Source: Ruegeria sp. R13_0 (GTDB taxonomy: Bacteria; Pseudomonadota; Alphaproteobacteria; Rhodobacterales; Rhodobacteraceae). Taken from it: 64,000 nucleotides of DNA. Made by a program: the position numbers and the translations under genes. Positions 43,935-60,102 of this stretch are shown here, piece by piece; the stretch's first letter is position 1, and the number at the start of each line of letters is the position of its first letter. The notes under the pieces were generated by a model, which did not search any database, had not been told where the DNA came from, and saw only the letters and a list, made by a program, of their open reading frames with translations. The stretch is from contig NZ_JAGHRB010000016.1 of the NCBI RefSeq assembly GCF_017743995.1, positions 1-64,000 of the forward strand, read 5' to 3'.

Positions 43935-46900
43935 ATGGGAATGAAAGACATGAATGATTTCTGGGCAGATGCTCTGCGCAAGTATTGGGGCCTGGAGGCC
44001 CTTCTGACACGGCTGAACGGAGAGTATGACCTGAACTTTCTGGTCGAAGCGAAGAACGGACAGGACTATGTCCTGAAAGTCATGCGCGCGGGGTGTGAGC
44101 CAGAGTTTGTCGACCTTCAAGTCCAAGCGCTCGAACATATCGCGGCTGGGGCGCCGGGGCTGCCCTTCCCCAAGGTATTCCCCTCGCTGGATGGTGCTGT
44201 CCTGCCCGAGATCGAAGATCAGGACGGCCAACCGCGCCTGGCTTGGTTGTTGGAGCGCCTTCCGGGCCAGTGCTACGCCAAGGTCGAGCCGAAATCCGAA
44301 GACTTGATCCTGAAACTCGGACGCGTTCTTGGCGCGACCGATCGCGCTCTGGCTGGGTTTGCGCATGACAGCCTGCAGCGGGACGAGTTCAAATGGGACC
44401 TGATGCAAGGCGGCTGGATCGCGGATCAGCTGGACGCGGTCAGCGACCCCGACCGTCGCGCGCTCTTGGAAGAGATCGTTCAGGGCTTCTCCGCGATCTC
44501 GGAAACGCTGCAAAGCCTTCCCACGCAAGCCATTCACAACGACGCCAATGACTACAACATTCTCGTCGAAGGTGAGCTGAGCGAACGGCGTACCGTATCC
44601 GGCCTGATCGACCTGGGCGACATGTGCGCCGCGCCGCGCGTATGCGATGTGGCCATTGCCGGGGCCTATATCGTTCTGGATCACCCGAAACCCGAACGCG
44701 CTCTGACCGCTCTGGTCCGGGGCTATCACGCCGCCAATAGACTGAGCGCAGAGGAGGTCGATCTGATCTGGCCCCTGTTGCGGATGCGGTTGGCGGTGTC
44801 CGTAGTGAACTCAACCCTGATGGCGGCTGAAAACCCCGATGATCCTTACGTGACCATCAGTCAGGCCCCGGCCTGGCGGTTCCTTGAGAACGAAGCCGTC
44901 AATGGCGGCCTGATGTCCGCCCGCTTGCGCGGTGCCTGCGGCTTACCGGTGGTCGATGGGGCCGAGCGCATCCACGCTTACCTCTCAGACCATCGCGGCC
45001 ACTTTGCCGAGATGTTTGGCCAAGACCTGAGCAATGTGCCGATGGGGTCTCTTTCTGTTGAGAATTCGACCTGGCCGCAGAACCCGTTTCACATGCCGCT
45101 CGAAGAAGCCGCGCGCGTAGGTGAGGAATTCGGCGATGGCCTGTGGCTGGGCTATTACAACGAACCCCGCCTGATCTATGCCGAGTCCGGGTTCCGCAAG
45201 GGGCCGTGGAAAGCCTCGGACCGGCGCACGGTGCATCTGGCCGTGGACGTGTTTGCGCCCGCTGGCACAGTTTTGCACGCCCCGATGAGCGGTCGGGTCG
45301 AAGTGGTCGAAAATCGCGACAACCATCTTGACTATGGCGGCGTGGTGATCCTGCATCATGAAACGCCCGAGGGGGATCCGTTCTACACGCTCTACGGTCA
45401 TCTGGACCCAGAGGTTTGTGACCGCTTGAAACCGGGCGATCCGGTGGCACAAGGCGCTGCGTTTGTGCGCCTTGGGGATGCCTCGCAAAACGGCGGATGG
45501 GCCCCGCATGTGCATTTCCAACTCGCCTTGACAACAGACGGCATGGAGGCCGACTGGCCCGGCGTCGCTGACCCGGATGAGCTGGAGTTCTGGAACGCGG
45601 TCTGTCCGAACCCAGCGGCTTTGCTGAATCTGGCCGATGACAAGGTTTGCTATCAGCCGACAGATAAACAGGCCGTTCTGCAAGGGCGTCACGATCATTT
45701 CGGCGGCAACCTGAGCCTGACCTATAACGATCCGGTCATGTTGGTGCGCGGTTGGAAACACCACCTGTTCGACGAGTGGGGTCGCCCCTATCTGGACGCT
45801 TATAACAACGTCCCGCATGCGGGCCACGCCCACCCGCGCATTCAGGCCGTTGCGGCGGATCAGCTGAAGCGGATGAACTCGAACACCCGCTATCTGCACC
45901 CGGCGCAGACCGCGTTTGCCAACAAGGTGCTATCGAAACTGCCGGATCATTTCGAGGTCTGCTTTTTCGTCAACTCGGGCACCGAAGCCAACGAGTTGGC
46001 CTTGCGTCTGGCCCGCGCCCATACCGGCGCAAAGGGGATCGTGACGCCGGATCACGGCTATCACGGCAATACCAACGCGGCTGTGGCGATATCGGCCTAT
46101 AAGTTCAACAAACCCGGCGGGATCGGTCAGGCTGATTGGGTCGAGCTGGTCAAGGTCGCGGATGACTACCGTGGCGCGTTCAAACGTGACGACGCCGACC
46201 GCGCGCAAAAATACGCAGATCTCGTGGACCCGGCGATAGCTGCTCTGCAGGCAAAGGGTCAGGGCGTGGCCGGTTTCATCGCCGAGACCTTCCCCTCGGT
46301 CGGTGGGCAGATCATTCCACCGAAACGCTATCTACCTGCAGTGTATGAGAAAATCCGCGCAGCTGGCGGTGTCTGTATCGCGGATGAGGTCCAGACCGGG
46401 CTTGGACGGCTGGGCGAATACTATTTCGGTTTCGAACACCAAGGCGCGCTGCCCGATATCGTTGTCATGGGCAAACCGATCGGCAACGGTCACCCTCTGG
46501 GCGTGCTGGTGACGACCAAAGAGATCGCCCAGAGCTTTGACAATGGGATCGAGTTCTTCTCGACCTTCGGCGGCTCCACCCTATCCTGCCGCATCGGGAA
46601 AGAGGTGCTGGACATCGTTGATGACGAAGGCCTGCAGGACAATGCCCGCGTCATGGGCGACCGTTTGATAGAGGGCCTGCGGCAGATCGAATCCGAGTTT
46701 GGCTGCGTCGGCGACGTGCGCGGGATGGGGCTGTTTCTGGGGGTTGAACTGATCAACCCGGATGGCTCGGAGGGGACCGAGATCTGCAACTTCGTGAAGA
46801 ACCGGATGCGCGATCATCGCATCCTGATTGGCAGCGAAGGGCCCAAAGACAATATCCTGAAAATCCGCCCACCTCTGACCATCGAGGCCGAGGATGTGGA

Positions 46901-47006
46901 CATGATCCTATGGGCATTGCGCGATGTCCTGAAAGGTGTCGGCGACTACGCCCCTGCCTCGGTTTGCGACCACGACCACCATCACGCAGGTTGTGGCTGC
47001 TGCTAG
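43935..47006 (+). CDS. Trifunctional fusion: APH-type kinase, M23 peptidase-like, class III aminotransferase
   Basis: The 1023-residue protein has three parts. Residues 1-350 are an aminoglycoside phosphotransferase-type kinase (IHNDANDYNIL near 199; GLIDLGDM after it), as in hydroxylysine kinases. Residues about 430-560 are an M23/LytM-like domain with HLAVDVF (near 433) and HVHFQ (near 525). Residues about 600-1005 are a class III PLP aminotransferase with the lysine in GKPIGNGHP near 847. The last 15 residues form a Cys/His tail, VCDHDHHHAGCGCC. Kinase plus aminotransferase/phospho-lyase fusions suggest a phosphorylate-then-eliminate reaction on an amino alcohol; substrate unknown. ATG codons at 43941 and 43950 are alternatives. 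Confidence 0.87.
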   Translation: MGMKDMNDFWADALRKYWGLEALLTRLNGEYDLNFLVEAKNGQDYVLKVMRAGCEPEFVDLQVQALEHIAAGAPGLPFPKVFPSLDGAVLPEIEDQDGQPRLAWLLERLPGQCYAKVEPKSEDLILKLGRVLGATDRALAGFAHDSLQRDEFKWDLMQGGWIADQLDAVSDPDRRALLEEIVQGFSAISETLQSLPTQAIHNDANDYNILVEGELSERRTVSGLIDLGDMCAAPRVCDVAIAGAYIVLDHPKPERALTALVRGYHAANRLSAEEVDLIWPLLRMRLAVSVVNSTLMAAENPDDPYVTISQAPAWRFLENEAVNGGLMSARLRGACGLPVVDGAERIHAYLSDHRGHFAEMFGQDLSNVPMGSLSVENSTWPQNPFHMPLEEAARVGEEFGDGLWLGYYNEPRLIYAESGFRKGPWKASDRRTVHLAVDVFAPAGTVLHAPMSGRVEVVENRDNHLDYGGVVILHHETPEGDPFYTLYGHLDPEVCDRLKPGDPVAQGAAFVRLGDASQNGGWAPHVHFQLALTTDGMEADWPGVADPDELEFWNAVCPNPAALLNLADDKVCYQPTDKQAVLQGRHDHFGGNLSLTYNDPVMLVRGWKHHLFDEWGRPYLDAYNNVPHAGHAHPRIQAVAADQLKRMNSNTRYLHPAQTAFANKVLSKLPDHFEVCFFVNSGTEANELALRLARAHTGAKGIVTPDHGYHGNTNAAVAISAYKFNKPGGIGQADWVELVKVADDYRGAFKRDDADRAQKYADLVDPAIAALQAKGQGVAGFIAETFPSVGGQIIPPKRYLPAVYEKIRAAGGVCIADEVQTGLGRLGEYYFGFEHQGALPDIVVMGKPIGNGHPLGVLVTTKEIAQSFDNGIEFFSTFGGSTLSCRIGKEVLDIVDDEGLQDNARVMGDRLIEGLRQIESEFGCVGDVRGMGLFLGVELINPDGSEGTEICNFVKNRMRDHRILIGSEGPKDNILKIRPPLTIEAEDVDMILWALRDVLKGVGDYAPASVCDHDHHHAGCGCC

Positions 47007-47907: not shown

Positions 47908-48582
47908 ATGGGCGCGGCAATTGTATTTGATCTGGATGGAACTCTGGTCGACAGCCTGGGCGACATCGTTGCAGCCGCGAACCAGACGCTGAGCGATCTC
48001 GACCTGCCCCCTCTGCCGCGCGAGGTGATCGGGCGATTCGTCGGCAATGGGCTCCCCAAGCTGGTTGAGCGTATGATCCGGCACTGCGAATTGCCCTTGG
48101 ACCGTCATGACGAGCTGACGAAAGTGACGCTTGCGCATTACACGGCGGGGGCCAGCAAAACGACGGTGCCCTATCCCGGCATTCCTCAGGCTTTGGCCAG
48201 CTTGCGGTCGCAGGGGCATACACTGGGCGTCTGCACCAACAAGCCCGAGGCCCCTGCCCGGCATATCCTCGACGCACTGGACCTGTCGCAATATTTCGAT
48301 GCGGTTCTGGGTGGCGATAGCCTGACTACAAGGAAACCCGACCCTCAGCATCTATTTGCAAGCTTCGACGCGTTGCCAGCTCATGGGTTGCGTGTTTTCG
48401 TGGGCGACAGCGAGGTGGACGCAGAAACAGCCGAGCGCGCCGAGATCCCCTTTCTCCTGTTCACACAAGGCTATCGGAAGTCGCCCGTGACAGATATTCC
48501 GCACGACATCGCCTATGACACGTCGGACGAGATTCCGCCCCTGGTCGCGCAGATGCTGCAGATGTCTGCTCAGGTGAAATAG
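47908..48582 (+). CDS. gph: Phosphoglycolate phosphatase (HAD family)
   Basis: The 224-residue HAD hydrolase has the motifs FDLDGTLVDS (nucleophile Asp, near residue 7), a motif II threonine in GVCTNKPE and the motif III/IV region FVGDSEVDAETA. It dephosphorylates 2-phosphoglycolate or a related phosphate. GAGGT six bases before ATG 47908 supports the start; an upstream ATG at 47764 lies in the regulatory region. Confidence 0.87.
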   Translation: MGAAIVFDLDGTLVDSLGDIVAAANQTLSDLDLPPLPREVIGRFVGNGLPKLVERMIRHCELPLDRHDELTKVTLAHYTAGASKTTVPYPGIPQALASLRSQGHTLGVCTNKPEAPARHILDALDLSQYFDAVLGGDSLTTRKPDPQHLFASFDALPAHGLRVFVGDSEVDAETAERAEIPFLLFTQGYRKSPVTDIPHDIAYDTSDEIPPLVAQMLQMSAQVK

Positions 48583-48608
48583 GTCTCAGCGCATACCCTT
48601 AAAATTAT

Positions 48609-48645
48609 TGAGGGGCCGGCCGAGGGGGTATGGACCAGCCCCTCA
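48609..48645 (+). terminator. Hairpin after gph
   Basis: TGAGGGGC and GCCCCTCA form an 8-bp stem around a 21-base loop, 26 bases after the gph stop. A 12-bp perfect palindrome (TCAGGGCCCTGA) occurs about 160 bases further on, near the Dld 3' end. Confidence 0.5.
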
Positions 48646-48833
48646 TCGGGGAAACTCTGTATGGCCCGTCGAGGCCAGCTGTTGTCTCTTGTTTAGCGGG
48701 CCGCGACGGGTGGCGAAATTGGGGGATTCCCGTAGGGCTGGATTTTTTTGCCTCAACGCAGCAGAGAAACCTGCGCCTGACCTCAGGTTTGAGGGGCGAT
48801 CAGGGCCCTGACCATACGCACCATGCGTCCGAG

Positions 48834-50522
48834 TTATTCGGGCTCGGCGTAGTTTCGTGCTTTGGACATATTACCGATCCCCGGATTGAAGGAATTGGTC
48901 GGGTCGCAGCATTTATAATGGGCCGCTAGATCGGGCTTGGCCTTGTACAGATGCCCCACATTATGTTCGGCGGGGTATTCCGCGCCGCGCGTGTCGAACA
49001 ACTCCAGCATTGCGGCTTTCAAAGCCTTTGGGTCGGCGCCTTTTTTGACCACGTAGTCCTGATGCATCACATGGCACATGAAATGCCCGTAGTAGAGCTT
49101 GTGGACCAGTTGGCCCTCAATCTCGGGCGGCAATTGTTCGAGCCAGTCCTGATCGTTGCGGCGCAGGGCCACGTCGAGTGCGATGATGTCCTCGACCTCA
49201 TTGGCGTGCAGCGCCATGTAACGCACGGCGGCCCCGGCGGCGGCAAAGCGGTGCAGCCCAGCGATCTTGGCCTCGCGCGTGGTGCATTCAAAGAAACCCG
49301 CATCGCGGTCTTTCATGAATTCCGGCAACCAGTCGGCGGTCTCGGCGATGCCGTCATCATTCATTTTTAGGATCAGGTGGTGTTCGTATTTGTCGCGGAA
49401 CGCCATCATGCGTTTTGGTAGCACGCGGGGCCACAGGGACACCGCCATCTGCATGAATCGATCAGTGAAATTGCGCAGGAAGGGAATTCGGCGCAGGCGG
49501 GCATCGACTGCGCCTTTGAGCGCAAAGAACATCGGCAGCCGGTCAGTGCCCAGCTTGTCGATCATCACGACCGTATCCTTGCCGTATCGCGCCGTGATGT
49601 CGAACACCTCGCGCTGCATGTATTCGGCGGACACTGGCAACGACTTGAATTCGGATAGAATATGACGGCGCAAGGCGGCCAGATCATCGGGACTGTTTGT
49701 TCCGATGTAAAACACCTTCTCGGCCTCGTTCTTGGGGAACGTATCAAGCCGCACGGCAAAGACGGCCAGCTTGCCCGCCGAGCCAGCGGATTCGAACAGC
49801 TTGGCCTTGTCCGCGTTGAACCGCGCAGGCGTTTCGGCGTCGACATCGCGCACGATCTGTGCGTAGTCGCTGGCCGAGGCGCGCTTGTTCGTGGCTCCGG
49901 GGTTACGGTCGAACGTGCCTGCATCGAGGTTCGCCAGGATCTCTTCCGGCGTGTCGCCCAGATCAATTCCCAGATGGTTGACCAGCTCCAACTCGCCCTT
50001 CTCGGATATCCGCGCGTGGACCGAAAGCTCGGTGTAAACAGGGCCGCGTTCCACCAGCGACCCGCCCGAGTTGTTGCAGACCCCGCCCACAATCGACGCG
50101 CCAATGCACGAGGAGCCGATCACCGAATGCGGCTCTCGCCCCAGTGGGGCCAACAGTTTTTCCAGCGCAAACAGGGTGGCGCCGGGAAAGCTGACGATCT
50201 GCTCGCCGTCGTTCAGCGGTACCAGAGTGTCCATGCGGCGTGTATTGATCAGTACCACTTCCCGGTCATAGCGGCCCGAGGGGGTCGACCCTTCGGTCAG
50301 GCCGGTGTTGGCCGCCTGCATGATGACAATCTTATCGGCTGCAACGCAGGCCTTCAGGACCTTCCACTGCTCCAGAAGGCTGCCGGGTTGAATGACGCAC
50401 AGTGCCTCGCCTTCGCCCGAGCGAAAGCCACGCCGGAACCGTTCCGTCGCGCGTTCGCCAGTCAGGACATGCCGCGCACCAACGACAGAGCGGAAATGTT
50501 CAATCAACGCGTCATTGGTCAT
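48834..50522 (-). CDS. dld: D-lactate dehydrogenase, FAD- and quinone-dependent (Dld type)
   Basis: The 562-residue protein is close in length to E. coli Dld (571) and has the FAD-binding domain (MQAANTGLTEGSTPSG, near residue 70; SSCIGASIVGGVCNNSGG near 137) and a C-terminal membrane-associated domain with FNPGIGN. It oxidises D-lactate and passes electrons to the quinone pool. Because comDE and hpsN are close, oxidation of sulfolactate is an alternative. It is last in the operon dctP-dctQM-lldD-dld. Confidence 0.88.
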   Translation of the reverse strand: MTNDALIEHFRSVVGARHVLTGERATERFRRGFRSGEGEALCVIQPGSLLEQWKVLKACVAADKIVIMQAANTGLTEGSTPSGRYDREVVLINTRRMDTLVPLNDGEQIVSFPGATLFALEKLLAPLGREPHSVIGSSCIGASIVGGVCNNSGGSLVERGPVYTELSVHARISEKGELELVNHLGIDLGDTPEEILANLDAGTFDRNPGATNKRASASDYAQIVRDVDAETPARFNADKAKLFESAGSAGKLAVFAVRLDTFPKNEAEKVFYIGTNSPDDLAALRRHILSEFKSLPVSAEYMQREVFDITARYGKDTVVMIDKLGTDRLPMFFALKGAVDARLRRIPFLRNFTDRFMQMAVSLWPRVLPKRMMAFRDKYEHHLILKMNDDGIAETADWLPEFMKDRDAGFFECTTREAKIAGLHRFAAAGAAVRYMALHANEVEDIIALDVALRRNDQDWLEQLPPEIEGQLVHKLYYGHFMCHVMHQDYVVKKGADPKALKAAMLELFDTRGAEYPAEHNVGHLYKAKPDLAAHYKCCDPTNSFNPGIGNMSKARNYAEPE

Positions 50523-50538
50523 GGCATCCCTCGTGTCT

Positions 50539-51690
50539 TTATGCAGCGCGGAAACGGATGTTCTCGCGGCTCAGTTGGTCGATTCTGGTCACACCCATCA
50601 GCTTCATGTCGCGCTCGATCTCGGCCCGCATGAGGCCCAGCGCGCGTTCGACACCCGGCTGACCAGCGGCGGCCAGAGGATACAGGTACTGACGTCCAAC
50701 ACCGACCGCTTTGGCGCCGATCGAAAGCGCCTTCAGCACATGAGTACCGCGCTGAATGCCACTGTCCATGATCACGTCCAGCTTGTCGCCGACGGCATCC
50801 ACGATCTCGGCCAGTTGATCGAACGGCGTGCGTGAGCCATCCAGCTGCCGCCCGCCATGGTTCGATAGAATGATCCCGGTACAGCCAATCTCGGCCGCAC
50901 GTTTGGCATCTTCGACGGTCATGATCCCCTTGAGGCAGAATTGACCATCCCAATCCCGCACCATCTGCGCGACATCGTCCCAATTCATCGACGGGTCCAG
51001 CATCTCGGTGAAATAGCCACCGATCGAGCTGGCACCGCCGCCCATATCCACATGCTCTTCCAATTGCGGCAGGCGGAATTTTTCGTGGGTGACATAGTTG
51101 ATCCCCCACATCGGCTTGATCGCAAACTGGATCATACCGCCCAGTGTCAGGCGGAACGGGATCGAGAAACCGGTACGCAGGTCACGCTCGCGGTTGCCGC
51201 CGGTAATGCTGTCCACGGTCAGCATCATGACCTCCACCCCGGCCTCTTTCGCGCGCTGCATCATGGCCGCGTTCAGGCCGCGATCTTTGTGGAAATAGAA
51301 CTGATAGACCTGCGGGTTCTTGTGCTTCTTGCGCAGTTCTTCAAGTGAGACGGTGCCCAGAGATGAGACACCGAACATGGTGCCATATTTCTCAGCCGCA
51401 GCGGCCACGGCGCGTTCGCCTTGATGGTGGAACAGCCGCTGCAGAGCGGTCGGCGAGCAGTAGAATGGCATATCCAGCTTCTGGCCCATCACGGTGACGG
51501 ACATGTCTACGTCCTTCACCCCGCGCAGAACAGACGGCAGCAGATCGCAGCGGTCGAAAGCGGCGGTGTTCTGGCGATAGGTCACCTCATCATCCGCACC
51601 GCCATCGATATAGTTGAAGATCGGCCCCGGCAGGCGGCGCTTGGCAAGCTGCCGGAAGTCGTGAAAGTTGTGGCAATGCTTGAGACGCAT
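50539..51690 (-). CDS. lldD: L-lactate dehydrogenase, FMN-dependent
   Basis: The 383-residue alpha-hydroxyacid oxidase-type enzyme has the FMN barrel signatures: GPIFNYIDGGADDE at the N-terminus, PTALQRLFHHQGE, and ILSNHGGRQLDGSRTPFD with the catalytic histidine (near residue 280). The 12-base gap to the TRAP gene and 16-base gap to dld show one operon. Other 2-hydroxy acids are possible substrates. Confidence 0.9.
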   Translation of the reverse strand: MRLKHCHNFHDFRQLAKRRLPGPIFNYIDGGADDEVTYRQNTAAFDRCDLLPSVLRGVKDVDMSVTVMGQKLDMPFYCSPTALQRLFHHQGERAVAAAAEKYGTMFGVSSLGTVSLEELRKKHKNPQVYQFYFHKDRGLNAAMMQRAKEAGVEVMMLTVDSITGGNRERDLRTGFSIPFRLTLGGMIQFAIKPMWGINYVTHEKFRLPQLEEHVDMGGGASSIGGYFTEMLDPSMNWDDVAQMVRDWDGQFCLKGIMTVEDAKRAAEIGCTGIILSNHGGRQLDGSRTPFDQLAEIVDAVGDKLDVIMDSGIQRGTHVLKALSIGAKAVGVGRQYLYPLAAAGQPGVERALGLMRAEIERDMKLMGVTRIDQLSRENIRFRAA

Positions 51691-51702
51691 AGTGTGATCT
51701 CC

Positions 51703-53766
51703 TTAGTACGCCACAGAGGGCAGCCAGGTGGCGAGTGTCGGCCATAGGAAGACAAGCGCCAATCCGGTCAGTTGTAGCAGCACAAAGGGGATGATGCCTT
51801 TGTAGATATGCATCAGCTTGATCTCGGGCGGGCAGACGCCTTTCAGGTAGAAGAGCGCGAAGCCAACCGGCGGGGTCAGGAAGCTGGTTTGCAGCGTCAC
51901 CGCCACCAAGATCACGAACCAGACCAGCGCGGGTTCATCCAGCACTCCGAAGCCCGGAATATCGATGCCAAGGCCGTTCACGATCGGACGCATCAGAGGC
52001 AGCACGATCAGGGTGATCTCGATCCAGTCCAGAACAAAGCCCAGCAGGAATACGATGAACAGGATGAACAGGATCGTGCCGTTGGCACCAAAGCCGGTGG
52101 ATTGGACCACATGTTCGATCAGTTCATCGCCGCCAAGTTCACGTAGAACATAGGAGAATACCGTCGCGCCAAGGAAGATCGCGAAGATGTAGGCGGTGGT
52201 GTTGAAGGTCGAAACCAGCACGTTCCACAGTTTCGCGAAGGTCAGCTTGCGGTATCCAAGCGCCAGCAGCGTCGCGCCCAATGCACCGATGCCCGAGGCC
52301 TCGGTCGGGGTGGTCAAACCTCCGAAGATCGAGCCCAGAACCGCGAGGATCAACAGCAGTGTTGGAATGACCGCGATCAGAACGTCTTTGACAGCATCCC
52401 AGTCGGGCGCTTTTGCGCCTTCAGGCACGGGGGCCGTGTCGCGCTTCACCTGTGCAAGAATGAAGATATAGGTCAGGTATAGCCCCCCGATGATCACACC
52501 GGGAAAGACAGCAGCCATGAACAGGTCTCCGACAGACAGCGCCATCTGGTCGGCCATGATCACCAGCATGATCGAGGGCGGGATCAGGATACCCAGCGTG
52601 CCCGAAGCAGAGACCACACCTGCCGCCAGCGTCGGCTGATATTTCTGCTGCATCATCGACGGCAAAGACAGCACGCCCAGCAACACCACAGATGCACCAA
52701 TAATGCCGGTCGAGGCCGCCAGAATGATCCCGATCAGGGTCACGGTGACGGCAAGGCCGCCCCGCACGGTGCCGAACAGGCGCTGCATCGAGGTCATCAG
52801 ACGCTCGGCCACACCGGATTCGTCCAGCATCAGACCCATGAAGATGAACATCGGCAGGGCAACCAGAACCGCGTTGGACATGGTCGCGTAGACCCGGTTC
52901 ACCACCGCGCCGAGGGTCAGATAATCGAGACCGGTAAAGGTGCTCTCCAACCCGGTCCACAGCATCAGGTCATTGTCGAACAGGTAAGCCAGACCGCAAT
53001 AGGCGACACCGACACCGGCCAGCACCCAGGCCACCGGATAGCCGGTGAAGAGCAGCGCGATGAAGGTCAGGAACATCGCAATGACCAGCTTTTCCTCGGT
53101 CGTTTCGACCAGGAAGGTCAGGCCCACACAGACGGCGGCAAATACAGCCAGCACCAGAAGGATGCGACGCAGCGGAGCCCCTTCGCGTTCCGAAGCCGGT
53201 CCGTACATCAATGCGTGCCCGTCGTGGATCAGCCGCGCCAGCGCAGCCAGGGCCAACAGAACAAAACTGATCGGAATGACCGCCTTGAAGGCCCAGCGCG
53301 CAGGCAGACCGGTGGGGCTGTCCGAGCGTTCGTTGACGCGGAAGCTTTCGTAGAAATAGTCATAGCCCTGATCGATCATCAGATAGATGAACGGGGTCAG
53401 CAGGGTCAGAATGCCGATCACCTCGATGATCCGCTGCGCCCGGCGGGACAATTGCATATGCAGAACGTCGACGCGCACATGGCTGTCTGTGATCAAGGCA
53501 TATGAGATGCCGATCATCGTAACGATGCCGTAGAAGTGCCACTGGATCTCATCCAGTTTGGGGTAGTTCTGGCTGAGCAGATAGCGCAGCGCGACCTGCG
53601 AAAAAATCGCCGCCATCAGCAGCACGTTCGCCCACATGACGACATGGCCGACAGCCTTGACGCCGGCATCAATGGCTACGGCGATTTTTTGGCGGTCGGT
53701 ATCGGGATGCTCCAGGATGCCTTCATAGGCCTCAACCGGATCTTTGGTGGTATTTGGATTGCTCAT
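51703..53766 (-). CDS. TRAP transporter, fused small and large membrane subunits
   Basis: The 687-residue protein joins DctQ (about residues 1-200, four membrane segments) and DctM (about 215-687, at least eleven segments) in one chain. The DctM part has long conserved hydrophobic blocks and the ASGTLGILIPPS motif. It imports organic acids with a sodium gradient using the DctP protein encoded next. The start is ATG 53766, which has GAGGA six bases upstream. Confidence 0.9.
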   Translation of the reverse strand: MSNPNTTKDPVEAYEGILEHPDTDRQKIAVAIDAGVKAVGHVVMWANVLLMAAIFSQVALRYLLSQNYPKLDEIQWHFYGIVTMIGISYALITDSHVRVDVLHMQLSRRAQRIIEVIGILTLLTPFIYLMIDQGYDYFYESFRVNERSDSPTGLPARWAFKAVIPISFVLLALAALARLIHDGHALMYGPASEREGAPLRRILLVLAVFAAVCVGLTFLVETTEEKLVIAMFLTFIALLFTGYPVAWVLAGVGVAYCGLAYLFDNDLMLWTGLESTFTGLDYLTLGAVVNRVYATMSNAVLVALPMFIFMGLMLDESGVAERLMTSMQRLFGTVRGGLAVTVTLIGIILAASTGIIGASVVLLGVLSLPSMMQQKYQPTLAAGVVSASGTLGILIPPSIMLVIMADQMALSVGDLFMAAVFPGVIIGGLYLTYIFILAQVKRDTAPVPEGAKAPDWDAVKDVLIAVIPTLLLILAVLGSIFGGLTTPTEASGIGALGATLLALGYRKLTFAKLWNVLVSTFNTTAYIFAIFLGATVFSYVLRELGGDELIEHVVQSTGFGANGTILFILFIVFLLGFVLDWIEITLIVLPLMRPIVNGLGIDIPGFGVLDEPALVWFVILVAVTLQTSFLTPPVGFALFYLKGVCPPEIKLMHIYKGIIPFVLLQLTGLALVFLWPTLATWLPSVAY

Positions 53767-53839
53767 GGTCATTCCTCGCCCGGCAGCCCTGTGCAAGGGC
53801 GGTGAAAGTTTGGAAAAATCCGAAGATCAGAAATCGACC

Positions 53840-53862
53840 GGGGCAGCAGTGTCCGCTGCCCC
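53840..53862 (-). terminator. Stem-loop between dctP and dctQM
   Basis: GGGGCAGC and GCTGCCCC form an 8-bp stem with a seven-base loop in the 115-base gap. It is followed on the minus strand by no clear T-run, so it may raise dctP levels relative to the membrane subunit by protecting the upstream transcript. Confidence 0.55.
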
Positions 53863-53881
53863 AGAGACGTCAGTGAGGACG

Positions 53882-54931
<1,050 letters not shown>

Positions 54932-55001
54932 AATGTCTCCTCCTGGGTGAGTCGGGCATCTGCCTCAAACACAAACGCAGACCCTTGCGGGTTTGCACTA
55001 G

Positions 55002-55207
55002 TGGTTCACTAACTTTACCAGTGTTCCTCAGTCAATAATTTTGTTTACCACTGGATCTGCAGAAATGCCCCTGACTGGGCGCGCTCCGTTTCGATGGAAT
55101 CCTACGTGTTTTCAGAAATTCTTATTTTGTTGAACACATTAAGATGCATTTCCATGCTCAGACTGAATGCTTGAAAAACGCACCAATATGGTTACATTTA
55201 TTTACCA
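55002..55207. promoter_or_regulatory. Two TGGT-N11-ACCA operators in the dctP/GntR divergent region
   Basis: TGGTTCACTAACTTTACCA (55002-55020) and TGGTTACATTTATTTACCA (55189-55207) agree at 13 of 19 positions. A third half-site (TTTACCACTGG) begins at 55044. The 313-base gap (54932-55244) is AT-rich and holds no gene. TGGT/ACCA arms fit FadR/LldR-type GntR proteins, and one is encoded next. Confidence 0.7.
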
Positions 55208-55244
55208 ATATATCTCACTTCGGCATCTTACTTAGGTATATCCC

Positions 55245-56018
55245 ATGAACACCAAGGCGATTTTTGAACCGGTCGGACACGAATCGCTGGCCGACGCCGT
55301 GGTGGCGCAGATCGAAGACCTCATCGCGTCGGGCATTCTGAAACAGGGGCGCAAGCTGCCGTCCGAGAGGGATCTGGCCGAGATGCTTCGGGTCTCACGG
55401 CCAAAGCTGCGCGAAGCACTGGCCGTACTGGAAGAGCGCGGGCTGGTCACCACTCAGCATGGTGAGGGGACCTTTGTCGCCGCCCTGACCGGGCAAGCGA
55501 TGTTGCCGGCCCTTCTGGCGCTCTACGAACGGCACGAGCCTGCCTTTTTCGACCACCTGGAATACCGCCGAGAACAAGAAGGCTTCGCCGCCCGCCTTGC
55601 CGCCCGCAGGTCCACCAAGGCCGACAAGGAAAGGATCGCCGAAATCCTCGACGAGAATGTTCGGGCGTGGGAGGCGAACGATGCGCAAGCCTCACGCGAG
55701 GCGGATTTCGCCCTGCATGCGGCCATCGTCGACGCCAGCCAGAACGCCACTTTGATCCACATGATGGCCTCAATCTACGAACTGACCAAGCGCGGCGTTT
55801 TCTACAACCGCAGCTTTCTGAAATCGATTGACGGTTCGGGCAAACAGCTGCTGGATCAGCACCTTGCCCTGGGCCAAGCGGTGATTGACGGAGACGAAAA
55901 GCGCGCTGAACAGGCCGCGCTGGACCATATAGACTTTGTCGAGCGTTCTTTCCGGACGGGGATAGAACAGCAGCGCCGCGAGGCTATGGCCGAGAAACGG
56001 CGTCTTCTGTCGCGCTAG
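55245..56018 (+). CDS. GntR-family regulator (FadR/LldR subfamily)
   Basis: The 257-residue protein has a winged-helix GntR domain (LPSERDLAEMLRVSRPKLREAL, about residues 38-60) and an FCD effector domain (metal-binding-type His/Asp, DFALHAAIVDASQN). It is divergent from the TRAP-lactate operon and likely a repressor relieved by a 2-hydroxy acid. Paired TGGT/ACCA sites lie between them. Confidence 0.87.
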   Translation: MNTKAIFEPVGHESLADAVVAQIEDLIASGILKQGRKLPSERDLAEMLRVSRPKLREALAVLEERGLVTTQHGEGTFVAALTGQAMLPALLALYERHEPAFFDHLEYRREQEGFAARLAARRSTKADKERIAEILDENVRAWEANDAQASREADFALHAAIVDASQNATLIHMMASIYELTKRGVFYNRSFLKSIDGSGKQLLDQHLALGQAVIDGDEKRAEQAALDHIDFVERSFRTGIEQQRREAMAEKRRLLSR

Positions 56019-56030
56019 ACAAGTAGTGCC

Positions 56031-56055
56031 AAAGCCGCCCGCAAAGGACGGCTTT
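56031..56055. terminator. Bidirectional terminator between GntR and comE
   Basis: AAAGCCG and CGGCTTT form a 7-bp stem around an 11-base loop, between two convergent stops 69 bases apart. Confidence 0.55.
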
Positions 56056-56087
56056 GATCAGTGCATTCGACAAAACCGAAGAAGTGT

Positions 56088-56642
56088 TCAGGCCTGTACC
56101 GCCTTCATAAACCGATCTCGGATCACCACAGGGTCCATCGTGATCGGCGGCATCTTGGCATTGCCGCTTTCGCATTTGCTGACGATGATGGTCATCTGCC
56201 GGGCGTCCAGCGCCTCTTGCAACACACGCCCGGTATCTTCGGCGGCGCATTCAATCACACGCTCACACCCTGCCGCAGCCGCCATTTTCGCCAGCGACGT
56301 CTTCAACCCGGCATAGGTCGGCTGATCCCCGGTGGACCCGTATGAGCCATTGTCGACGATCAGGAGGATGTAATTGTCAGCCACGTTGTTCGCGATGGTC
56401 GGCAGCGTTCCCAGATTGGTCAGAACGGAGCCGTCCCCGTCGATCACGATCACCGGCTTGGGCTGGGACAGGGCCAACCCCAGACCTATGGATGAAGCCA
56501 ACCCCATCGTGCCCAGCATGTAGAAATTCGTTGGCTGGTCATCAATCGCATGAAGCTCTTGGCTGGGAATGCCGATGTTACAAACCACCAGTTGATCCCG
56601 CAGGATCGGAGCGATTTCTTTCAGGATTTCAGAACGGATCAT
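56088..56642 (-). CDS. comE: Sulfopyruvate decarboxylase beta subunit (ComE-like)
   Basis: The 184-residue subunit has the thiamine diphosphate motif (VIDGDGSVLTNLG through to the NGS step, near residue 77) of ComE/phosphonopyruvate decarboxylase-type enzymes. It pairs with the upstream alpha subunit (four-base overlap ATGA). The pair converts 3-sulfopyruvate to sulfoacetaldehyde in sulfonate breakdown. The nearby HpsN favours sulfopyruvate over phosphonopyruvate. Confidence 0.82.
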   Translation of the reverse strand: MIRSEILKEIAPILRDQLVVCNIGIPSQELHAIDDQPTNFYMLGTMGLASSIGLGLALSQPKPVIVIDGDGSVLTNLGTLPTIANNVADNYILLIVDNGSYGSTGDQPTYAGLKTSLAKMAAAAGCERVIECAAEDTGRVLQEALDARQMTIIVSKCESGNAKMPPITMDPVVIRDRFMKAVQA

Positions 56643-57145
56643 TGGTCGCCATAGCCTCCCCAGAAGTTGGCGTCGGTCAGAATGGCGACCGGCTTGTTGC
56701 ACATGAACGTGTATTTCAGGATCGCATCCAACTCGGCCACATCCGCCTGATGGTGAAAATGGTACGTCGGGATATTGAGCTGCGCCAACAACGCTTTGGT
56801 GTGAACAGCCATCTCAACCTGACATGCAATCGGCTCGCGCAGCTCGCCCCGGTACGAGATCAGCATCGGTAGTGGCATCCGGTAATACTGGATCAAAGTC
56901 GCCAATGTGTTGATCGTCACCCCGATCGCCGTGTTCTGCATGATAATGGCGGGGCGCTTACCGCCCATCCATGCGCCTGCACACAGGCCCATCCCCTCAT
57001 CCTCTTTGTTTGACGGGATGTGATAGATGCCTTCGCGCTGGTCGATCTCATCAATGACTCCAGCCAGTTGTTTGCAGGGGACGGTGGTTACGAACGAAAT
57101 GTCATTCGCCACCAGATCGTCAGTGATCTTCTTGTCTATGTTCAT
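56639..57145 (-). CDS. comD: Sulfopyruvate decarboxylase alpha subunit (ComD-like)
   Basis: The 168-residue subunit is the pyrimidine-binding half: it has IPSNKEDEGMGLCAGA with the conserved glutamate and YRGELREPI. Length fits ComD-type subunits that are separate from ComE. The start at ATG 57145 is one of several options, as no clear ribosome site lies at the best distance. The usp gene ends 51 bases upstream. Confidence 0.82.
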   Translation of the reverse strand: MNIDKKITDDLVANDISFVTTVPCKQLAGVIDEIDQREGIYHIPSNKEDEGMGLCAGAWMGGKRPAIIMQNTAIGVTINTLATLIQYYRMPLPMLISYRGELREPIACQVEMAVHTKALLAQLNIPTYHFHHQADVAELDAILKYTFMCNKPVAILTDANFWGGYGDQ

Positions 57146-57196
57146 CTTCCGGCTGTCAGTCCTGTTGTTGGCGCCCAAGAGCGCGATTGACGGTAG

Positions 57197-57604
57197 TCAC
57201 CTGCGGTACACATGCACCGCGCAAGGGGCATGACGCACGACGCGCGACGCTGTGGAGCCCAGGAAATAGTCGCTGAGATCGGGCTTGTGAGACCCGATGA
57301 CGATGCAATCGACACCGTTCTCTGCCGCAAAATCTATGATCGTACGCGCCGTGTGGCCCTTTACGAGTTCGGAACTCACCCCATCCAGCCCCTCGACTTT
57401 GCGCGACAATTCCAGTCGGGCGCGGCGAAACCCTTCGGCCACCAGATCCTTGTCCAGAAACGCACTGACAGAGCCCTGAGGCATTTCGTAAACGTGCAGA
57501 GCAATGATCTCTCCGCCTCCCTGCGATAAGGCTCGGGCCACTTCCAGAGTGTGTTGCGAGATATCGTGATCCAGCGCCATTGGAACGAGAACTTTCTTGT
57601 ACAT
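57197..57604 (-). CDS. Universal stress protein (UspA family)
   Basis: The 135-residue protein has the Usp nucleotide-binding motif (VIGSHKPDLSDYFLGSTASRVV) near the C-terminus. It lies between hpsN and comD on the same strand, as in other Roseobacter sulfonate clusters that I recall. Its part in this pathway is unknown. AGGAG precedes the ATG. Confidence 0.85.
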   Translation of the reverse strand: MYKKVLVPMALDHDISQHTLEVARALSQGGGEIIALHVYEMPQGSVSAFLDKDLVAEGFRRARLELSRKVEGLDGVSSELVKGHTARTIIDFAAENGVDCIVIGSHKPDLSDYFLGSTASRVVRHAPCAVHVYRR

Positions 57605-57703
57605 GTCAAACTCCTTTCGGCCCGGTCGGCCCTATCGTTCCAAGGATAGTACCCGGTGCGGCATCAAGGCCAGAGAACAGTTTGGCAGGGGTGGCTGGAC
57701 CAA

Positions 57704-59011
57704 TCATCCCTCAGCACGCAGATCAAATTCCTCATCCGGGAAATACTTGGCGAGGCGTACATCGGCCGCCCGTGCATGCCCCTCCATCCCTTCCACGCGC
57801 GAAATTCTGGCTGTGGCCAGAGCAATGGGTTTTGAGCCTTCCCGGGTCGCCCGCTGCCATGTCACGATCTTCATGTATTTGTGGACGCTCAACCCGCCCG
57901 TGTAGCTGGCCGCCCCTGAGGTCGGCAGAACATGGTTGGTGCCCGTTGCCTTGTCCCCGTAAGATACCGTGGTCTCTTCCCCTAGAAACAATGAGCCATA
58001 GCAGGTCAGGCGATCCAGCCACCACTCCAGATCCTCGGCCTGAACGGTCAGGTGTTCCGGCGCGTATTCGTCAGAACAAGCGGCCATCTCTTCACGGTCG
58101 GAACATACGATGACTTCGGCATAGTCACGCCACGCAGCAGCCGCGTTCTCTCGGTTCAGGTCAGGAAGATCTGCAATCAGTTCGGGCACCAGTGCCATAA
58201 CCCTCTGCGCAAGCGCTCGGTCATCCGTCACCAGCCACACAGGAGAATTGTACCCGTGTTCCGCCTGACTGACGAGATCGGTTGCCACAACAAGCGGGTC
58301 CGCACTGCTGTCGGCAAGGACCAGACTGTCGGTGGGTCCTGCGATCATGTCGATGCCAACCTCACCATAGAGGATACGCTTTGCTTCAGCGACAAACTGG
58401 TTCCCCGGCCCTACAAGGATATTTGCGCGCGGCAGGCCGAACAGGCCGTATCGCATCGCGGCGACACCCTGCACCCCTCCCATCGCCAGAATACTGTCGG
58501 CCCCACAGATATGAGCCGCATAGACTACTGCAGGCGCAACGCCCTCATCCAGTTTCGGAGGAGAACACGCAATGATGTGGCGGCATCCGGCGACCTTGGC
58601 GGTTGTCACGGTCATGATTGCACTGGCGATATGGCTGTAACGACCGCCGGGCACATAGCATCCCGCCGCATCCACTGGGATCGCCTTTTGACCAGCGATC
58701 ACTCCGGGCACGATCTCGGTTTGGACGTCGGTCATCGTGGCCTTTTGCGCCTCGGCAAAATGGCGGACGTTGTTGTGGGCGAAACGGATATCCGCCTTCA
58801 GCTTTTCGGGCACAAGCGCAATGGCGGCGTCAATCTCGTCCTGCGTCATCAGAACGTTGCCGTCGAACCTGTCGAACTTTGCCGCGTATTCTAGCGCCTT
58901 CGCATCGCCGCCTGCTTCGATCTCCGCCAGGATGGTCTTGACCGTATCGTGAACCTCGGGCGCATCAGTTTGCGCCGTCAGCATCGCCTTTTTGAGATAG
59001 TCGCGCGCCAT
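57704..59011 (-). CDS. hpsN: Sulfopropanediol 3-dehydrogenase-like (HpsN/HisD family)
   Basis: The 435-residue protein belongs to the histidinol dehydrogenase family, with GPGNQFVAEAKRILYG, the zinc-ligand region SQAEHGYNSP and DEYAPEHLTVQ. No histidine genes are adjacent, and the run HpsN, Usp, ComDE points to sulfonates. HpsN oxidises (R)-2,3-dihydroxypropane-1-sulfonate to (R)-sulfolactate in two NAD steps. A palindrome lies 80-97 bases upstream. Confidence 0.83.
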   Translation of the reverse strand: MARDYLKKAMLTAQTDAPEVHDTVKTILAEIEAGGDAKALEYAAKFDRFDGNVLMTQDEIDAAIALVPEKLKADIRFAHNNVRHFAEAQKATMTDVQTEIVPGVIAGQKAIPVDAAGCYVPGGRYSHIASAIMTVTTAKVAGCRHIIACSPPKLDEGVAPAVVYAAHICGADSILAMGGVQGVAAMRYGLFGLPRANILVGPGNQFVAEAKRILYGEVGIDMIAGPTDSLVLADSSADPLVVATDLVSQAEHGYNSPVWLVTDDRALAQRVMALVPELIADLPDLNRENAAAAWRDYAEVIVCSDREEMAACSDEYAPEHLTVQAEDLEWWLDRLTCYGSLFLGEETTVSYGDKATGTNHVLPTSGAASYTGGLSVHKYMKIVTWQRATREGSKPIALATARISRVEGMEGHARAADVRLAKYFPDEEFDLRAEG

Positions 59012-59090
59012 AGTCAGCCCCTGCTCCCGGTTCCTGCCCGGCCACTCTGTCAGAGGCGAAATCGCCTTTGCAAGCGTTTGTGGAGCCGTA

Positions 59091-59108
59091 AACGAAACTC
59101 TTTTCGTT
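59091..59108. promoter_or_regulatory. Perfect palindrome upstream of hpsN
   Basis: AACGAAA and TTTCGTT (7-bp arms) frame a four-base spacer in the 325-base gap (59012-59336) between hpsN and rpmD. It is 80 bases before the hpsN start and probably an operator for the hpsN operon. No regulator gene is adjacent. No gene was seen in the rest of the gap. Confidence 0.6.
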
Positions 59109-59283
59109 CTTCTAACCCCATTTAAGAAAAGATAAATTTCGGGATTGGGAAAGCTGAAACTCGGCCTTCTATGAAGACCTCTGCGCTGTTTTTGCCACCG
59201 GATTCTGCGGGCCGCGCACCCGCCTTCGGCGCGTGAGGTAAACAGTCAAACGAAGCGATTCGCAGATACAATCAGGCAAAAGA

Positions 59284-59313
59284 AAACGCCCCTGACAAAG
59301 GTCAGAGGCGTTT
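59284..59313 (-). terminator. Rho-independent terminator after rpmD
   Basis: A 13-bp stem with one mismatch and a four-base loop lies 24 bases after the rpmD stop, followed on the minus strand by a T-rich TTCTTTT run. It separates the ribosomal operon from hpsN. Confidence 0.8.
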
Positions 59314-59336
59314 CCAAAAACATATTCAAAGGGCGG

Positions 59337-59525
59337 TTAGCCGCGCTCTTCGATGATCTCAACCAGATGCGGGATCTTGTTGACCATGCCGCGAACCGAA
59401 GGTGTATCCTCCAGCTCACGGGTGCGGTGCATCTTGTTCAGGCCCAGACCGATCAGGGTTGCGCGCTGTTCGGCGGGGCGACGGATCGGAGAACCAATCT
59501 GCTTGACGACGATGGTTTTTGCCAT
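59337..59525 (-). CDS. rpmD: Large ribosomal subunit protein L30
   Basis: The 62-residue protein shows the L30 pattern ([21 protein letters not shown], then GLGLNKMHR). It is the last gene of this ribosomal segment; rplO and secY, its normal followers, are absent, and a terminator comes next. Confidence 0.97.
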
Positions 59526-59538
59526 TGCTCGCTACTCC

Positions 59539-60102
59539 TTACGCTTCGGCTTCAGCCGGTGCTTCGTCCCGCTTGGGCAGGATGTCGGCAACTTTTTTAC
59601 CACGACGTGCGGCAACCGAACGCGGGCTCTGCTCTTTCTGCAGGCCGTTGATGGTGGCGCGGATCATGTTGTACGGGTTCTGCGAGCCCAGCGACTTGGA
59701 CACAACGTCCTTAACGCCCAGCATTTCGAACACGGCACGCATCGGACCACCGGCGATGATACCGGTACCTTCAGGTGCGGTGCGCATAACCACTTTACCA
59801 GCGCCGTGACGGCCTTCAATGTCGTGGTGCAGGGTCCGACCTTCGCGCAGTTGCACGCGGATCATGTTGCGCTTGGCTTGCTCAGTCGCCTTGCGGATAG
59901 CTTCAGGTACTTCTTTCGCTTTACCTTTGCCAAAGCCGACGCGGCCTTTCTGATCGCCGACAACCACCAGAGCGGCGAAGCCAAAGCGCTTACCACCTTT
60001 TACGGTTTTCGACACGCGATTGATTGCGACCAGGCGATCTGCAAATTCCGGCGCTTCTTCACGGTCGCGGCCACGGCCCCGACGGTTTTCACGTTCTGCC
60101 AT
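59539..60102 (-). CDS. rpsE: Small ribosomal subunit protein S5
   Basis: The 187-residue S5 protein has the [20 protein letters not shown]-binding region and [15 protein letters not shown]. It lies 13 bases before rpmD, but 174 bases after rplR, an unusually large gap for this operon that contains a dispersed repeat (60227-60270). Confidence 0.97.

Follow-up and report, generated by a model that had tools for sequence, protein, structure and literature searches.

HpsN-dependent degradation of DHPS has been described as proceeding through Xsc, SuyAB, and CuyA branches (PMC11382572, in the sections available to us). The Xsc branch (HpsNOP, SlcD, ComDE, and Xsc), set out there for Ruegeria sp. 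ANG-S4 and Jannaschia sp. CCS1, is the published system with which our locus is compared; the SuyAB branch (hpsNOP with suyAB) is set out for Dinoroseobacter shibae and Cupriavidus, and section 13 gives overlaps of SuyAB with CuyA and of Xsc with CuyA. SlcD has been reported for strain ANG-S4 (same sections). The cluster of Ruegeria pomeroyi DSS-3 is hpsRKLMNOPQ-slcD, from which the gene names hpsR to slcD used here are taken, hpsQ being the name of its Usp gene (PMC4334477, accessible part). ComC has been proposed to act with SlcC as a racemase (PMC12421959, accessible part).

Here, we report a short hps-comDE set in Ruegeria sp. R13_0 that adjoins a lactate-type operon. As in ANG-S4 (locus L010), the order is HpsN, Usp, ComD, ComE, and Xsc is likewise present in the genome; the R13_0 locus differs in lacking hpsR, hpsKLM, hpsO, hpsP, slcD, and an HpsR-type operator, and no SlcD of at least 60% identity occurs in its genome. 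HpsN and the Usp gene are common to this locus and that of R. pomeroyi DSS-3, which, in the accessible part of PMC4334477, has slcD and no ComDE there, whereas R13_0 has ComDE and no slcD; locus L067, from another R. pomeroyi strain, agrees with DSS-3. The neighboring operon resembles Escherichia coli lldPRD and dld in its LldR-type regulator, LldD-fold FMN enzyme, and E. coli-type Dld, and differs in having a TRAP transporter instead of LldP, an LldD 34% identical to that of E. coli, and dld inside the operon.

Materials and methods

The window is the whole stretch of DNA analyzed, 64,000 nt of Ruegeria sp. R13_0 (GCF_017743995.1, contig NZ_JAGHRB010000016.1, positions 1 to 64,000). From 562 confirmed HpsN relatives, the best 80 were kept as HpsN loci, each with at most 10 kb on either side (less where a contig ended), and their genes were counted from tblastn matches covering half of the query or more. 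SlcD was identified by its position in L067 and L010. For the FMN enzyme tree (midpoint root), rows with a stop in the aligned stretch were dropped, and 46 SlcD sequences were used versus the 47 counted at 60% identity or more. Dld surroundings were sampled from 20 of the 35 same-genus genomes having Dld. The 68 hpsR-linked regions searched for operators comprised 67 named loci and the genome's own cluster on contig C18. The names SuyA and SuyB rest on gene position and on kinship with sugar-acid dehydratases, the NCBIfam models offered including none of their own.

Results

Two units lie side by side (Table 1). The first (hpsN, Usp gene, comD, and comE) is one leftward set on the minus strand (59011-56088), and the second consists of an LldR-type regulator gene (55245-56018) and the TRAP, LldD-type, and Dld genes (54931-48834). 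The regulator gene, on the plus strand, converges on comE and is divergent from dctP, dctQM, the LldD-type gene, and dld. Upstream of hpsN is a ribosomal operon ending with a gene (59337-59525) that we take, from its sequence, to be rpmD. This gene is usually followed by rplO and secY, neither of which was seen beyond it on the sulfonate cluster side (59012-59525 region). Rfam gave no match over 48000-60000. An earlier note on this DNA, made from sequence alone, mentions neither the LldR-type regulator nor the Usp gene that separates HpsN from ComD. Elsewhere, the window (43935-47006, plus strand) encodes a 1023-aa fusion of APH-type kinase, M23 peptidase, and class-III aminotransferase domains.

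Table 1. Features of the two adjoining units and the sequence between and beside them
Feature	Position	Strand	Basis or remark
Terminator-like 15-pair stem in the rpmD-hpsN interval	59282..59315	-	Longest of the terminator-like sites in the region
hpsN, predicted (R)-DHPS 3-dehydrogenase	57704..59011	-	8wwe 743 bits, 8v35 532 bits, motif G-R-Y-S-H, PF00815
Usp gene, hpsQ-like	57197..57604	-	PF00582; Usp before comDE in many relatives
comD, predicted sulfopyruvate decarboxylase alpha subunit	56639..57178	-	TIGR03845 147.1 bits, cut-off 147.95
comE, predicted sulfopyruvate decarboxylase beta subunit	56088..56702	-	TIGR03846 234.0 bits, cut-off 221.5
8-bp stem, 11-nt loop, between stop codons of converging comE and lldR-type genes	56030..56056	.	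By eye
FadR-family regulator, nearest LldR	55245..56018	+	NF007741 158.9 bits (cut-off 311), PF07729, PF00392
dctP, TRAP solute-binding protein	53882..54931	-	PF03480
Fused dctQM, TRAP permease	51703..53796	-	PF04290 and PF06808
LldD-type FMN 2-hydroxyacid dehydrogenase	50539..51690	-	PF01070
dld, quinone-dependent D-lactate dehydrogenase, E. coli type	48834..50522	-	NF008387 915.8 bits, cut-off 391; 1f0x 792 bits

The hpsN ORF (435 aa) is intact, and its scores against the solved DHPS dehydrogenases 8wwe and 8v35 compare with 263 bits for the best solved histidinol dehydrogenase listed. Aligned with 8v35, the protein carries its G-R-Y-S-H at the position of the HpsN-specific motif (...R-Y-A/S-H) and keeps the Glu-His and Asp-Lys active-site residues, motif and residues being as named in the available sections of PMC11382572. 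ComE exceeds its curated cut-off and ComD falls less than 1 bit short. HpsN and ComE are well assigned and ComD probably so, with predicted enzyme activities, and the placing of HpsN and ComDE in a DHPS-sulfolactate-sulfopyruvate-sulfoacetaldehyde route, as the earlier note had it, is borne out at the level of family and structure matches.

The full order in many relatives is hpsR / hpsK-L-M-N-O-P-Q-comD-comE-slcD. HpsN and ComDE without hpsO and hpsP were found in 5 of the best 80 of 562 HpsN loci (L003, L004, L015, L039, and L054), L039 having SlcD and beginning near a contig end. Like R13_0, genome G007 carries two hps loci, a short hpsR-hpsN-Usp-comDE set (L242) and a full hpsRKLMNOPQ-comDE-slcD cluster (L243). 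The short sets of L003, L004, and G007 share one genomic place and the window's lies elsewhere; its HpsN-Usp spacer is 99 nt versus 179 nt in L003, and in the HpsN tree it groups with L006 and L104 (support, 0.76), both of which keep hpsP. Clear common descent with the L003, L004, and G007 sets was rejected on place, spacer, and grouping; an independent reduction is conceivable, on weak support. Titles and abstract openings yielded no description of a short hpsN-Usp-comDE set, subscription literature lying largely beyond the search. A Usp-ComD-ComE set also occurs at L236 8786-10299, in a genome (G028) without HpsN (E ≤ 1e-150), SlcD, or HpsP.

The genes and operator pair missing from the window set, together with a second hpsN elsewhere in the genome, would fit a set in decay that the second cluster has rendered redundant. 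We regard this as decidedly unlikely: all four ORFs are intact, similar short sets occur in other loci, comE has no second copy in the genome (E ≤ 1e-60), and dN/dS is about 0.04 for hpsN (dS > 1, saturated) and about 0.03 for comE, each against L003, which indicates purifying selection on both.

The palindrome AACGAAA-CTCT-TTTCGTT, which the earlier note had suggested as a possible regulator of the set, is exactly at 59091-59108, 80-97 bp upstream of the hpsN start and between the 15-pair stem and hpsN. With 2 mismatches allowed, the window holds a single copy, and so none ahead of the lactate genes; with 1 mismatch allowed, no other of 245 loci has it, matches in L081 and L184 being the same place. 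A role as a shared regulator of both units was rejected on the single copy and the lack of conservation. Given this lack and arms of just seven bases, the palindrome may be a chance occurrence. Terminator-like sites in the region numbered 5, versus 5.3 expected by chance.

Relatives carry a LacI-type operator ahead of their hps operons (e.g., L003 9914-9948). In 68 of 68 hpsR-linked regions, the best match to TGTAAGCGCTTACA reached 11-14 of 14 letters (exact in 51), and each of the 7 regions inspected had a second site of 13 matches 21-22 bp away, forming a pair. Before the window hpsN, the best TGTAAGCGCTTACA-like site matched 9 of 14 letters, and letter shuffles of the region upstream of the gene reached at least 9 in 365 of 2000 cases; the HpsR-type operator is absent from the window cluster, the best site being at chance level. 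Of 20 intergenic regions before the lactate operon, one (L162) showed a FadR-type operator pattern, which the window lacks.

In the second unit, the LldD-type protein meets the PF01070 fold and scores under both LldD model cut-offs (NF008398, 294.3 versus 376; NF033901, 256 versus 550). Dld is far over its family cut-off across residues 3-560, and the model given for the regulator was the best of its list, its cut-off being unreached (Table 1). DctP was nearest to 2hzk and the ketoacid-binding protein 7ug8 among solved structures, the lactate-binding TTHA0766 entry 7e9y scoring weaker. No published account of an operon of TRAP transporter and lldD genes was found among the matches listed.

Of 20 same-genus stretches, 19 had the whole LldR-DctP-DctQM-LldD-Dld order (identity, 84-97%; for Dld, 72-93%), the exception, from G028, having LldD and Dld only. 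None of the 20 contained hpsN, comDE, or hpsKLM, their hps-labeled matches being just single LacI- or SDR-type genes (30-37%); a HAD phosphatase gene adjoins Dld in the window and in 4 of these stretches. HpsN (E ≤ 1e-150) and Dld occur together in 34 same-genus genomes, on the same contig in 8 and within 10 kb in R13_0 alone (8.9 kb; next smallest, 154 kb); in 26 of the 34 they are on different contigs, where a contig break between neighbors is possible outside the sampled surroundings. The five lactate genes at 60% identity or more were not found in the best 80 of 562 HpsN loci, some flanks of which end with the contig. Of the 35 genomes with Dld, 5 (G011, G026, G035, G036, and G037) have one stop codon inside the match, perhaps the natural end.

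The LldD-type, Dld, and TRAP genes are present within about 9 kb of HpsN (8 kb in the earlier note). The note's idea that one of them supplies a missing pathway part was not supported, the unit being separately conserved with its own regulator; the alternative it mentioned, a separate lactate operon merely lying nearby, is the better reading, given that regulator and the unit's occurrence at a distance from hps genes in the relatives examined. The window TRAP transporter was rejected as a DHPS carrier, DctQM being 22-26% identical to the hpsM permeases preceding HpsN and an HpsKLM-like set being present in the C18 cluster.

Sulfolactate oxidation is indeed missing at the window locus. Among the best 80 of 562 HpsN loci, ComE was found in 52, SlcD (at least 60% to L010 SlcD) in 47, and both in 40, and in 40 SlcD lay 18-97 nt behind ComE. 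SlcD has the LldD fold, which bears out the enzyme class that the earlier note had guessed. The window LldD, at 33% (L010) and 31% (L067) identity, is no nearer to SlcD than is E. coli LldD (34% to each). The FMN enzyme tree places it among 20 same-genus orthologues (support, 1.0), separate from the 46 SlcD sequences, whose node has low support (0.38), and the window LldD stands behind neither ComE nor Usp, in a separate unit past the converging regulator. On both position and clade, the window LldD is not SlcD. The two groups have many invariant residues in common and should each consist of active FMN enzymes, and the window LldD may, as far as its sequence goes, act on sulfolactate.

Across 54 same-genus genomes, ComE (E ≤ 1e-60) was present in 45 and SlcD (at least 64%) in 31. 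SlcD without ComE was found in 0 of the 54, and 14 of the 45 ComE genomes were without SlcD, which sharpens a testable question: how sulfolactate gets oxidized there. LldD occurred in 12 of these 14 versus 16 of the 31 genomes with both (P = 0.046 by Fisher test, three tests in all, kinship ignored), Dld in 12 of 14 versus 18 of 31 (P = 0.094, kinship ignored), and the enzyme type encoded on contig C55 in 13 of 14 versus 30 of 31 (P = 0.53, kinship ignored). The LldD enrichment leans toward the substitute role that the earlier note had in mind, as a hint at most; two genomes with ComE (G008 and G050) have neither SlcD, LldD, nor Dld.

A single pathway formed by both units, in which the window LldD (or Dld) oxidizes sulfolactate and the TRAP transporter carries DHPS or sulfolactate, would draw on their closeness, the fold common to LldD and SlcD, the LldD enrichment, and the invariant residues, among which are those expected to be catalytic. 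We consider it very unlikely, since the lactate unit is conserved separately (apart from hps genes in 19 of the 20 stretches sampled) under its own convergent regulator, the adjacency is seen in 1 of 34 genomes, LldD forms its own clade at 31-33% to SlcD, G008 and G050 keep ComE without either candidate, and the permease is distant from hpsM. LldD and Dld were accordingly set aside as sulfolactate oxidizers on separate conservation, rare adjacency, and, for LldD, clade.

The C18 cluster comprises a LacI-type regulator gene, hpsKLM, an hpsN 79% identical to that of the window, hpsO, hpsP, a 96-aa SuyA-size ORF, suyB, a ComC-like gene, and a Usp gene. It is of the same kind as the SuyAB branch in the available sections of PMC11382572, to which the genome adds ComDE and Xsc. 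Xsc is encoded on contig C54 (TIGR03457, 911.5 bits versus a cut-off of 676.4, passed by 0 of 14 control genomes). Among 54 same-genus genomes, SuyB is present in 5 and ComE in 45, and that of the window is the one genome with both; this combination is absent from the overlaps given in section 13 of that source. A third HpsN/HisD-like protein (G000:C22:326642-327916; L083, L087), 46% identical to HpsN, has an hpsO-like SDR gene (38%) nearby.

With the second cluster and Xsc on other contigs, the route needs neither lactate enzyme. The likeliest sulfolactate oxidizer is the ComC-like protein of C18, whose best family is NF040650 (sulfolactate dehydrogenase; 199.7 bits, short of the cut-off of 500), and with ComC in this presumed role as the middle step, DHPS can be followed all the way to acetyl phosphate. 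The complete DHPS-to-sulfoacetaldehyde route of the earlier note is thus encoded in the genome on paper, with its other parts on other contigs.

An unlinked FMN enzyme (C11) or ComC superfamily enzyme (C55) might perform the middle step instead, or sulfopyruvate might arise otherwise, which we think unlikely. The C11 enzyme is the genome's closest SlcD relative (41-42%; best match, 41%), and its gene is flanked by pyruvate carboxylase-like and unrelated genes. The C55 type is present in 49 of 54 same-genus genomes, including nearly all of those with ComE and without SlcD, but is equally common with SlcD, and the gene lies among dipeptidase-, aldehyde dehydrogenase-, and SDR-like genes. ComC of at least 50% identity was found in none of the 13 ComE genomes without SlcD other than that of the window, a point in favor of such an enzyme.

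Discussion

It is probable that two unrelated units adjoin here: a short hps-comDE form relying on parts elsewhere in the genome and a lactate-type operon. Gene content, order, conservation, tree position, and the absence of a close SlcD are read directly from the genomes compared. The first unit would be a short form of the roseobacter DHPS cluster hpsKLMNOPQ-comDE-slcD. HpsN would convert (R)-DHPS to (R)-sulfolactate and ComDE sulfopyruvate to sulfoacetaldehyde, uptake and epimerization would be supplied by the C18 cluster (hpsR-KLM-N-O-P-suyAB-comC-Usp), sulfolactate would most likely be oxidized by its ComC-like enzyme, and sulfoacetaldehyde would be cleaved by Xsc from C54. Direct cleavage of (R)-sulfolactate is also within the reach of SuyAB, which would give two pathway branches. 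The second unit would serve the use of lactate or a related 2-hydroxymonocarboxylate, with TRAP uptake, LldD-type and Dld dehydrogenases, and an LldR-type regulator. We infer all of these substrates and activities, and the filling of the gap by ComC. The ComC score, the racemase role proposed for ComC with SlcC (PMC12421959), the low support of the SlcD node, the LldD enrichment in ComE genomes lacking SlcD, and the LldD-type protein's scores under its cut-offs, its substrate being putative, count against this explanation.

A further idea is that, in Ruegeria-like bacteria that kept ComDE and lost SlcD, LldD took over sulfolactate oxidation and a rearrangement joined the two units here. This seems to us highly improbable; if true, lactate and sulfolactate catabolism would share one dehydrogenase.

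What emerges is a known pathway in variant form next to an ordinary lactate-type operon, and the neighbor is probably the wrong enzyme. Proximity can mislead: the apparent missing enzyme belongs to a conserved lactate-type operon, and the relatives' enzyme for the step is a different LldD-fold protein, absent from this genome. The genome of R13_0 joins the SuyAB branch and the ComDE/Xsc branch, each with its own HpsN.
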